Shown: positions 1,999 to 29,067 of the stretch, piece by piece
How positions within the stretch are numbered: the stretch's first letter is position 1
Layout of the letters: every line of letters begins with the position of its first letter
Source: Marivita sp. GX14005
Lineage (GTDB): Bacteria; Pseudomonadota; Alphaproteobacteria; Rhodobacterales; Rhodobacteraceae
Length of the DNA: 33,139 nucleotides
NCBI RefSeq assembly: GCF_023370775.1
Contig: NZ_JAMCCQ010000008.1
Location: 1-33,139, forward strand
Reading direction: 5' to 3'
Translations under genes and position numbers: made by a program
The notes under the pieces: model-generated
What the model saw: only the letters and a program-made list of their open reading frames with translations
The model's database searches: none
What the model was told of the DNA's origin: nothing

Positions 1999-2013
1999 GT
2001 AACCCTTCGTTAA
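1999..2013 (+). promoter_or_regulatory. CtrA-like box (GTAA-N7-TTAA) upstream of the 2066 gene
   Basis: The sequence GTAACCCTTCGTTAACC matches the alphaproteobacterial CtrA consensus TTAA-N7-TTAA with one mismatch in the first half. It ends 52 bases before ATG 2066. Three other glycan genes have a similar box at 51-53 bases. Binding by CtrA is inferred. Confidence 0.5.
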
Positions 2014-2065
2014 CCTCGATGAAGGCAGATGGAGGAAACAGATGCTCCATCCGAAGGCCCGCCCC

Positions 2066-3046
2066 ATGCTCATCCACCTGCCGGATCCCGACACCCAGAC
2101 CCTGCCGCTGCGCGGCCGCCTGCTCGGCCAGGCCCTGCGCGCGCATCTCAAACGGCGCGGCGAAACGCTGCTGACCCCGGTGCCGCGCCGCACGGGGGCG
2201 CGGGCGGTGCAGGACACGATGACGCTGGCCGCCCTGCCCGCCCGCCCGCAGGGCCGCGCCGCCGTCTCGCTCGGGCTGGGGTTGCCGCAGGCGCTGCAGC
2301 ACGGGCCGGCCACGCTGCTGCTCACCGCCTCGCTGGCGGACGAGCTGCACAGCTTCGCCGGCCCCGAGGCCTTCGCCGCCGCCGGCACGCTGCCGCTGGT
2401 GCTGCAGGGCTATGGCCGCGCCATCGTGATCGACCGCGCCGACATGGCCGGATCGGTCGGCTTCGCGCCCTGGATCACGCTGGAGCTTGCCGATCGCTTC
2501 CCCGTCGATGCCGCCCTGCCGGAGGCCGCCGCACCGGGCGCGCCGCCGCGCATCCTGATCCTCGATCATGGCGCACCGGCCGGGCAGGCCGAGGTGCTGC
2601 GCCGCGCGCTCTCAAGCGAGGCGGCGCAGATCCGCATCGCCCATGCGCAAAGCGATCACGCCGCGATGGGCGCGGGGCTGGTGGCCGATCTGCACCTGCA
2701 TCTGGGCTATGGCCCGGACCGTGCCATCACCGCGCTCTCGCCCTTCGACAGCCTGATCTCGGGCGCCTATACGCTGGTCCTGCCCGATGCGGGGCAACGC
2801 GCGGGGCCGGACCTGCGCAAGCTCTGCGCGGCGCGCTCCTATGGCGATCTCGCCCCCGGCCTGTCGGAGCTTGAAACCCGCGCCCGCGCCATGCTCGCCC
2901 GCATCCGGGCGATCCGCGACACCGGCGCGCGCCAGAACCCCGAACAGGCCCGGTTCGCGGCCCAGAATGCCGCCGCCCGGAGCGAGGCGCTGCGCCGCTT
3001 CGATGCGGTGCTCGACGCGCCCCGCGCCGGGCAGGAGGCCGCCTGA
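2066..3046 (+). CDS. glycan-locus protein, possibly a divergent GT-B glycosyltransferase
   Basis: The product is 326 aa from ATG 2066, or 334 aa from ATG 2042. ATG 2042 has the stronger Shine-Dalgarno sequence (GGAGGA five bases upstream). ATG 2066 instead lies 52 bases after a CtrA-like box and behind a leader, CCGAAGGCCCGCCCC, that matches the leader of the GT2-GT4 gene starting at 12522 in 14 of 15 bases, so I prefer 2066. I do not recognise the family with certainty. The second half has Rossmann-like strands (PRILILDHG) and then SPFDSLISGAYTLVLPDAG, which resembles the donor-site end of a GT-B enzyme. A charged helical tail follows (about residues 270-326). No membrane segments are seen. 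The stop overlaps the next gene's ATG (TGATG), so the two products are probably coupled and may act together. Confidence 0.65.
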   Translation: MLIHLPDPDTQTLPLRGRLLGQALRAHLKRRGETLLTPVPRRTGARAVQDTMTLAALPARPQGRAAVSLGLGLPQALQHGPATLLLTASLADELHSFAGPEAFAAAGTLPLVLQGYGRAIVIDRADMAGSVGFAPWITLELADRFPVDAALPEAAAPGAPPRILILDHGAPAGQAEVLRRALSSEAAQIRIAHAQSDHAAMGAGLVADLHLHLGYGPDRAITALSPFDSLISGAYTLVLPDAGQRAGPDLRKLCAARSYGDLAPGLSELETRARAMLARIRAIRDTGARQNPEQARFAAQNAAARSEALRRFDAVLDAPRAGQEAA

Positions 3047-27962: not shown

Positions 27963-29000
27963 TCAGGCCACCGCGTCGTAATCGGCGCGCGCCATCATCC
28001 CCGCCAGGGCGCGCACATCAACGCCCGGTCGCCAGCCCAGCTCGCGCCGCGCGCGGGAAGCATCGCCGACCAGCAGATCGACCTCGGCGGGGCGGAAGAA
28101 GGCCGGGTTCACCTCCACGACGCGCCGCCCGGTGCGCCGGTCGGTGGCCACCTCCTCCACCCCCTCGCCCTGCCAGTCGAGCGGCATGTCGAGCGCCTCT
28201 GCGGCGAAGCTGACGAAATCGCGGATCGGCGTGGTCACGCCGGTGGCCAGCACATAGTCGCCGGGGGTCTCCTGTTGCAGCATCCGCCACATGCCCTCGA
28301 CATAATCGCCGGCAAAGCCCCAGTCGCGCCGCGCCGAAAGATTGCCCAGCTGCACCGGCGCATTGCCGCCGCGCGCGATCCGCGCCAGCCCGCGGGTGAT
28401 CTTGCGGGTGACGAACTCCTCGCCGCGCAGCGGGCTTTCATGGTTGAAGAGGATGCCGCAGGAGGCATGCATGCCGAAGCTCTCGCGGTAATTGACGGTG
28501 ATGTAATGCCCGTAGGCCTTGGCCACGCCATAGGGCGAGCGCGGGTAGAACGGCGTCGTCTCCACCTGCGGCACGGCCTGCACCAACCCGAACATCTCGG
28601 AGGTCGAGGCCTGGTAGAACCGCGTCTCGGGCGCCAGCGTGCGCAATGTGTCAAGCAAACGCGCCACGCCCAGACCGTTCACATCGCCCGCATAGACCGG
28701 CTGCTCCCAGGAGGAGCCGACAAAGCTCTGCGCGGCGAGGTTGTAGAACTCGTCCACCGGCACATCGCGGAGCAGGCGAAAGACATTGTTCATCTCCGAA
28801 AGGTCGAGATCGTGCAGATGCACGCGATGCGCCACGCCGAGCGTCTCCAGCCGCGCCAGATCGGCCTGCGCGTTGCGGCGCAACCCGCCATGCACCTCGT
28901 AGCCCTTCTCCAGCAGCAGCTTCGCCAGATAGGCCCCGTCCTGCCCGGTGATCCCGGTGATGAAGGCACGCTTGCGCGATGGTTCGGTCTTGGCAGACAT
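27963..29000 (-). CDS. gmd: GDP-mannose 4,6-dehydratase
   Basis: This 345-aa extended SDR enzyme has [28 protein letters not shown], the classic Gmd N terminus, then [17 protein letters not shown], the catalytic [12 protein letters not shown], and [23 protein letters not shown] with Tyr-x3-Lys. [19 protein letters not shown] is also diagnostic. It makes GDP-4-keto-6-deoxymannose. GGGAGA lies before the ATG, and a CtrA-like box lies 52 bases upstream. No fcl or rmd reductase follows in the window, so the end product (L-fucose, D-rhamnose or other) cannot be told. Confidence 0.96.
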
Positions 29001-29052
29001 GATGAAAATCTCCCGTCAGGGTTGCGTTGACGTGTTTATCCGGCGGGGAATG

Positions 29053-29067
29053 TAAAGATTGGGTTAA
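29053..29067 (-). promoter_or_regulatory. CtrA-like box (TTAA-N7-TTTA) upstream of gmd
   Basis: The minus strand reads TTAACCCAATCTTTA, one mismatch from TTAA-N7-TTAA, with an additional TTAA just upstream. Exactly 52 bases separate it from ATG 29000, the same distance as at three other glycan genes. Confidence 0.45.

Follow-up and report, generated by a model that had tools for sequence, protein, structure and literature searches.

Conserved CtrA-type boxes before three glycan genes of a probable rhamnose plasmid suggest activation by CtrA in Marivita

Introduction

The regulons of the response regulator CtrA described for Dinoroseobacter shibae and Phaeobacter inhibens include flagellar, cyclic di-GMP (c-di-GMP) and quorum-sensing targets, and glycan genes of biofilm plasmids are not among the targets named in the accessible portions of the two papers (PMC4046655, PMC12363192). 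The CtrA consensus of D. shibae is TTAA-N7-TTAAC, with flgB among the genes carrying it (PMC4046655). In Rhodobacter capsulatus, GTAAC-N6-TTAAC was named as the CtrA site of the ctrA promoter, and TTAAC-N6-GTAAC before gafA is bound by CtrA (Kd, 55 nM) at a distance from the start codon that is conserved in 14 other species (PMC6363796). Here we analyse a 33,139-nt contig of Marivita sp. GX14005 (the whole stretch is called the window), in which boxes of the form TTAA-N7-TTAA stand before four glycan genes, g1, g2, g3 and gmd (Table 1). An earlier note had proposed that these genes answer to CtrA; we find that three of the four promoters are probably CtrA-activated.

CtrA has already been tied to surface polysaccharide in Caulobacter, where capsulation of swarmer cells is prevented by the CtrA-dependent HvyA (PMC4241560). 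The Marivita case would be alike in this respect, but the Caulobacter regulator activates an inhibitor of capsulation, whereas the Marivita boxes precede presumed biosynthesis genes themselves. The form of box 1 is exactly that of the R. capsulatus ctrA site; compared with the R. capsulatus ctrA and gafA sites, the boxes described here belong to plasmid glycan genes, and they lie about 52 nt from the start codon as against 65–71 nt at gafA (PMC6363796).

Loss of the rhamnose operon of P. inhibens is reported to impair biofilm formation and motility (PMC12363192). With the rhamnose plasmids of roseobacters, the window shares an RPA-type replication protein, ParA/ParB, rmlCBDA, ABC export, glycosyltransferases and DUF2793; it differs from them in three conserved CtrA-type boxes, two of which also occur in a Paracoccaceae locus from a metagenome-assembled genome (MAG). 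A literature search, with subscription papers mostly outside its reach, found no report of CtrA control of biofilm-plasmid glycan genes.

Results

Rescanning the window recovered all four TTAA-N7-TTAA sites described in the earlier note, two of them perfect and two with one mismatch, and no fifth site with at most one mismatch was present. Dinucleotide shuffles of the window held 0.44 such sites on average, and four were reached in none of 100. The distances from box to start codon proved to be 52, 51, 53 and 52 nt for starts at 2066, 12522, 21740 and 29000, as the earlier note had counted. The ATG at 2042, whose ribosome site is the better one in this copy, was considered as a start of g1 and rejected, not being conserved; 2066 is the start kept in relatives. 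TTAA itself had been called very rare in the window, with most copies in the boxes: the latter is true (six of nine copies), but the tetranucleotide is only mildly depleted (9 copies vs 13.9 expected from the shuffles). A seventh copy lies directly beyond box 4, and GTTAACC sits directly ahead of that box.

Boxes 1, 2 and 4 are conserved in the syntenic plasmids of five other Marivita genomes. Box 1 is present in all four relatives with readable upstream sequence (the contig of the fifth stops there), box 2 recurs in 5/5 relatives as a perfect 15-mer with a variable spacer, and box 4 is retained before gmd in 5/5. Outside the genus, the locus of the Paracoccaceae MAG BWSM_50 carries the g1 site (46 nt by hand count) as well as the g2 site, the latter again perfect with a variable spacer and 50 nt from its gene. 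Comparison of the window with the five plasmids (four for g1) gave 17 orthologous sites of the form TTAA-N7-TTAAC, in extended form TTAAC-N6-TTAAC with slight variants; every one has the trailing C, and none departs from the TTAA halves by more than one base. Nine core positions, comprising both half-sites and the C following the second, were identical in 360 of 360 within-promoter pairs over the three promoters; in the same pairs, identity was 64–89% in the spacer, 31–58% in the 40 bases upstream and 52–57% in the 26 bases downstream. Core identity was taken from box-anchored sequences, and alignments made without the anchor agree. All 17 sites lie 45–57 nt from the start codon (g1, 49–57; g2, 45–54; gmd, 49–53, the gmd start in relatives being the last ATG within 75 nt).

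Where a response regulator replaces the -35 element, as OmpR-type activators do, its box is expected just ahead of a -10 hexamer. We looked at the gap, defined as the distance from the end of the 16-base box, to a hexamer with A at position 2 and T at position 6. The g2 promoters have CA-N3-T at gap 11 in 7/7 cases and the g1 promoters fit the pattern at gap 11 in four of six, the MAG locus being included in both counts; GATAA stands at gap 11 in 6/6 gmd promoters. For comparison, among 17 Marivita genomes a -10-like hexamer occurs at gap 10 in 16 promoters of a gene for an EAL-type c-di-GMP phosphodiesterase, and in the ctrA promoters at gap 10 in 15 and at gap 11 in two. Thus the three plasmid promoters match the layout of the ctrA promoter of the genus, with an imperfect register at g1 and a hexamer without the final T at gmd.

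The genome encodes a Rhodobacterales-type CtrA (418 bits vs a cut-off of 350) and a ChpT above its curated cut-off; a CckA-like kinase, read in part, has CckA as its best match, far below the whole-protein cut-off. Before ctrA itself, [CA]TAAC-N6-TTAAC was found 52–53 nt from the start in 17/17 Marivita genomes, the choice of these sites having required a trailing C and no more than one mismatch, and the EAL phosphodiesterase gene has a perfect box in 17/17. The own genome has 11 perfect sites outside the window, and the flanking gene is annotated at 10. They include the sites of the EAL phosphodiesterase (43 nt) and a LuxR-type regulator (67 nt), and one lying 5 nt before the first possible start of the CckA-like kinase. 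Six have no obvious link to CtrA (Hint domain, DUF4214/RTX, PAS, DUF6173, SppA-like peptidase, dihydrolipoyl dehydrogenase). A site with one mismatch lies 25 nt before the gene of a rod protein (Flg_bb_rod), which may be compared with the flgB site of D. shibae.

A further perfect box lies 45 nt before a chromosomal gene for a GT2 glycosyltransferase with an MshEN domain (locus L009, C5:393062), similar to cellulose or poly-N-acetylglucosamine (PNAG) synthases. The box is perfect in 16/16 Marivita genomes with readable upstream sequence; one contig is too short (in the EAL/GT2 set, locus L195 ends 72 nt upstream of the match). For the CtrA regulon, this gene is a second exopolysaccharide candidate.

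The whole genome of 3.45 Mb contains 13 perfect sites, and the count rises to 102 when up to one mismatch is allowed. Two and four of these, respectively, fall within the window, which makes up 0.96% of the genome and where 0.11 and 0.95 would be expected from the density elsewhere (P of 0.005 and 0.016, both computed post hoc). The fixed spacing of about 52 nt holds for the four window genes, but perfect sites elsewhere lie 5–188 nt from the chosen starts (10 of 11 sites), and this spacing is therefore not universal. The case stands on conservation and position.

As a control for the spacer, TTAA-Nk-TTAA pairs were counted for each k from 0 to 24. The six Marivita plasmids gave nine pairs at k=7 against a mean of 0.7 at other k, a contrast that Poisson figures overstate since orthologous sites are not independent; the seven pairs at k=2 are largely the double site at gmd. 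The same peak appeared in 75 non-Marivita loci with g2 homologs (12 pairs vs a mean of 1.75), whose 12 perfect sites include the related sets L075/L085/L117, L101/L104 and L092/L128, and in 11 other plasmids of the RPA type (four pairs vs a mean of 0.2).

These 11 homologous plasmids belong to eleven other genera and were sampled over 545 kb; for six of them the sample covers 50,000 bases of a length of 52,512 to 154,467, and the P. inhibens plasmid was read as two stretches overlapping by 100 bases. One of their four perfect sites lies within 80 nt of an annotated start, namely 44 nt before a DUF2793 gene of Jannaschia (counted by hand; the gene tables are incomplete). The P. inhibens plasmid scanned here, from strain P57 and corresponding to the 65-kb biofilm replicon of DSM 17395, has a single perfect site, 359 nt by hand count before the gene of a calcium-binding protein. 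The loci with g2 homologs were the best 80 of 319 relatives, and 75 of them lie outside Marivita. A script found a perfect box before 5/79 non-Marivita g2 homologs, at a distance of up to 300 nt, to which a Lutimaribacter homolog (66 nt) was added by hand, and perfect boxes also occur in the divergent region between the wza-like and permease genes in a Tabrizicola and a Rhodobacter locus.

The contig (C10 of the 11 contigs of the genome) coincides with the entire window, which is likely a complete plasmid. Its G+C content is 68.4%, and it has the appearance of a rhamnose "biofilm" plasmid. Matches to it came from rhamnose (rfbA-D) plasmids of Tropicibacter, Tateyamaria, Phaeobacter and others, with rfbA-D annotated beneath the matches, and syntenic plasmids were found in five of the 16 other Marivita genomes examined, including M. 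hallyeonensis DSM 29431 and M. lacus. A Pfam scan covering 20 of the 27 listed window genes identified a replication initiator of the RPA family (PF10134, E = 3.6e-97), a ParA-type AAA ATPase above the cut-off and a ParB_N match slightly below its cut-off (E = 4e-5). The traits of roseobacter biofilm plasmids, i.e., the RPA replication protein, ParA/ParB and rmlCBDA, are thus present in the window, with the ParB_N match slightly sub-cut-off. Glycosyltransferases, an ABC-2 permease, an ABC ATPase, the GDP-mannose dehydratase, a phosphomannomutase and a SIS-CBS sugar isomerase were also recognised by Pfam; proteins of the 3-deoxy-D-manno-octulosonate (KDO) pathway downstream were named by eye from the sequence. 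Partition proteins aside, no transcription-factor family was found among the 20 scanned genes, and Rfam gave no match in the window at the gathering threshold.

Table 1. Boxes, -10-like elements and genes of the window considered here
Feature	Position	Strand	Remarks
Box 1	1999..2014	+	GTAAC-N6-TTAAC; upstream of g1
-10-like region of g1 promoter (approximate)	2025..2031	+	putative; out of register in the window copy
g1	2066..3046	+	protein without known family; glycosyltransferase gene directly behind
Glycosyltransferase group 1	3046..5337	+	start adjoins the g1 end; co-transcription with g1 presumed
g2, two-domain glycosyltransferase	10213..12522	-	GT2 and GT group 1 (Pfam)
-10-like hexamer CAAGCT	12556..12561	-	11 nt after box 2
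Box 2	12573..12588	-	TTAAA-N6-TTAAC on the gene strand; upstream of g2
Box 3	21672..21686	+	perfect TTAA-N7-TTAA before g3; weakest of the four
g3, glycosyltransferase	21740..24184	+	GT group 1; inside segment inverted relative to relatives
Phosphomannomutase	26514..27890	-	behind gmd, on the same strand in the window
gmd, GDP-mannose 4,6-dehydratase	27963..29000	-	PF16363, E = 1.4e-127
-10-like hexamer GATAAA	29035..29040	-	11 nt after box 4
Box 4	29052..29067	-	TTAAC-N6-TTTAC on the gene strand; upstream of gmd

Several other features of the window deserve a comment. The protein of g1 matched neither Pfam nor the Protein Data Bank (PDB), and g1 is an orphan beside glycosyltransferases, found only in plasmid-bearing Marivita (six of 31 genomes, our own counted) and the one MAG locus. 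Two composite palindromes, with TAGGTCCG arms around TGTTTCGCATGCGAAACA, flank g2 beside parB at 12669-12726 and 10137-10194. Across the Marivita plasmids, g2 has paired arms on either side; in two of six, the second copy has one arm altered. These palindromes, which resemble the universal parS, are a candidate for the plasmid centromere (parS). Off the plasmid, TAGGTCCG begins directly after a perfect TTAA-N7-TTAA at two places in the own genome (L003:1516-1573 on C1 and L007:1516 on C4), and L003 holds further arms of the TAGGTCCG/TGTTTCGCATGCGAAACA palindrome.

The gap between parA and parB (13750-13893) has a hairpin-like GGGGTTTGGGGCAGAGCCCCAAT, kept with variants in relatives; a CtrA-like site before parB (13790) is not conserved and was hence dropped. 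A GGGGCAGAGCCCC run also lies at 1920-1932. Directly behind rmlA, at 20147-20166, GATTCGGATAAGGAAAGGTT is identical in three of five relatives, and the remaining gap hardly aligns.

Discussion

Conservation, the trailing C, position and a layout like that of the ctrA promoter mark boxes 1, 2 and 4 as CtrA-type sites; the earlier note had said the same of all four boxes, and box 3 does not bear it out. Such evidence, drawn from sequence comparison, makes it quite probable that the g1, g2 and gmd promoters of the Marivita biofilm plasmid are activated by CtrA. In this scenario, a dimer of CtrA, phosphorylated via CckA and ChpT, would occupy two TTAAC half-sites spaced at 11 bp, the box would stand in for a -35 element 10–11 bp upstream of the -10 hexamer, and transcription would start approximately 28 nt before the start codon. 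The gene g1, two glycosyltransferase genes and the GDP-deoxyhexose branch would then join the regulon of ctrA and the EAL phosphodiesterase, probably shared by the operon of the flagellar rod protein. No box of this kind precedes the rml (rhamnose) operon. We infer CtrA binding, activation, the start sites and any effect on glycan or attachment from these promoters; their geometry predicts that the glycan genes are on together with the flagellum, and not in a reciprocal switch.

A number of observations weigh against activation by CtrA. Box 3 has no counterpart in four of five Marivita relatives and so failed the conservation test; it also lacks the trailing C and a -10-like hexamer in register. 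The segment 21740-27890, from g3 to the phosphomannomutase gene, is inverted relative to the five Marivita plasmids, where g3 lies behind gmd; in the window the inversion has placed phosphomannomutase behind gmd and turned g3 towards DUF2793. In M. hallyeonensis (G015), a box lies at a near-equal distance from DUF2793 (147 nt vs 148 nt, counted by hand). Box 3 may thus be an older site of phosphomannomutase or DUF2793 that now faces g3. Among the remaining promoters, the hexamer is out of register in two of the six g1 promoters, that of gmd is without its final T, and the chromosomal GT2 promoters fit the hexamer pattern at gap 11 in only 4/16.

Other points of this kind come from the genome at large and from related organisms. 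The reversed pattern AATT-N7-AATT is commoner genome-wide (21 perfect, 347 with at most one mismatch) than the box, and the 15-mer is therefore not in excess there; a 400-kb sample of the own genome showed no peak at k=7 (one pair, vs two at k=16). At flagellin, the nearest site carries one mismatch and lies some 1.3 kb away from the gene. In R. capsulatus, CtrA was not detectably bound to its own promoter and the phosphomimetic form had low affinity, and the start site of gafA coincides with the CtrA site, unlike the geometry proposed for the plasmid (PMC6363796). Hardly any of the four perfect sites in the 11 plasmids of other genera is at the position of the plasmid boxes. Finally, the ctrA, cckA and chpT mutants of P. 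inhibens DSM 17395 showed significant changes on the chromosome and on the 262-kb and 78-kb replicons only (PMC12363192), so that the homologous 65-kb biofilm replicon seems to be unaffected by loss of the relay.

It might be supposed that another OmpR-family regulator, such as CenR, ChvI or an uncharacterised paralogue, binds the boxes and that CtrA is uninvolved. The genome has ten more full-length OmpR-type regulators that match the CtrA model below the cut-off, and CenR and ChvI control envelope or polysaccharide genes in relatives (PMC9275681, PMC9731502). However, the motifs reported for them are different, namely TGA-N8-TGA for CenR (PMC9275681) and TTGC-N3-GCAA or N-GCC-N8-GCC for ChvI (PMC9731502). 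None of these occurs on either strand in the 17 sixteen-base sites; with a flank of 25 bp on each side, the CenR motif appears in one of 17 and GCC-N8-GCC in two of 17, without conservation. Keeping in mind also that, in form and layout, the plasmid boxes agree with the ctrA promoter of the genus, we regard a different regulator as unlikely.

A slightly less likely scenario is that CtrA binds but represses, so that glycan would go up when CtrA is inactive, in a reciprocal switch. This would fit the swim/attach switch imagined in the earlier note, and CtrA can also be a negative regulator via the same box; Caulobacter, with its swarmers kept uncapsulated by HvyA (PMC4241560), offers a precedent. 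Against repression stand the placement of the box where a -35 element would be, 10–11 bp before a -10-like hexamer, an arrangement shared with the ctrA and EAL promoters, and the mainly downward changes of expression that follow loss of the relay in P. inhibens (PMC12363192). As for the boxes being chance occurrences or the AT-rich core of ordinary promoters, the excess of AATT-N7-AATT over the box and the existence of unconserved perfect copies such as box 3 speak for it, but half-sites that are invariant around a more variable spacer in six plasmids and the k=7 peak among TTAA pairs make this highly improbable.

The wiring proposed for g1, g2 and gmd does not extend to roseobacters in general: sites are few in the 11 homologous plasmids, and the changes in the P. 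inhibens mutants were confined to other replicons (PMC12363192). The box wiring is lineage-specific, and it may have arisen more than once. It is tempting to suppose, although we do so tentatively, that the glycan module was wired promoter by promoter into the chromosomal CtrA relay in Marivita, with the homologs in Phaeobacter and others remaining outside, and that CtrA-type boxes were captured independently at several glycan promoters of Rhodobacterales (g2 homologs, the wza-like/ABC-permease pair, DUF2793).

If CtrA does activate these promoters, it would alter the make-up of the surface glycan through a glycosyltransferase and the GDP-deoxyhexose branch, switched on with the flagellum, and leave the rhamnose supply untouched. 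For one genus, the conserved CtrA-type promoters suggest a direct and simple link between a plasmid and the control system of its host, and, with Phaeobacter as a contrast, how this link evolved can be put to the test.

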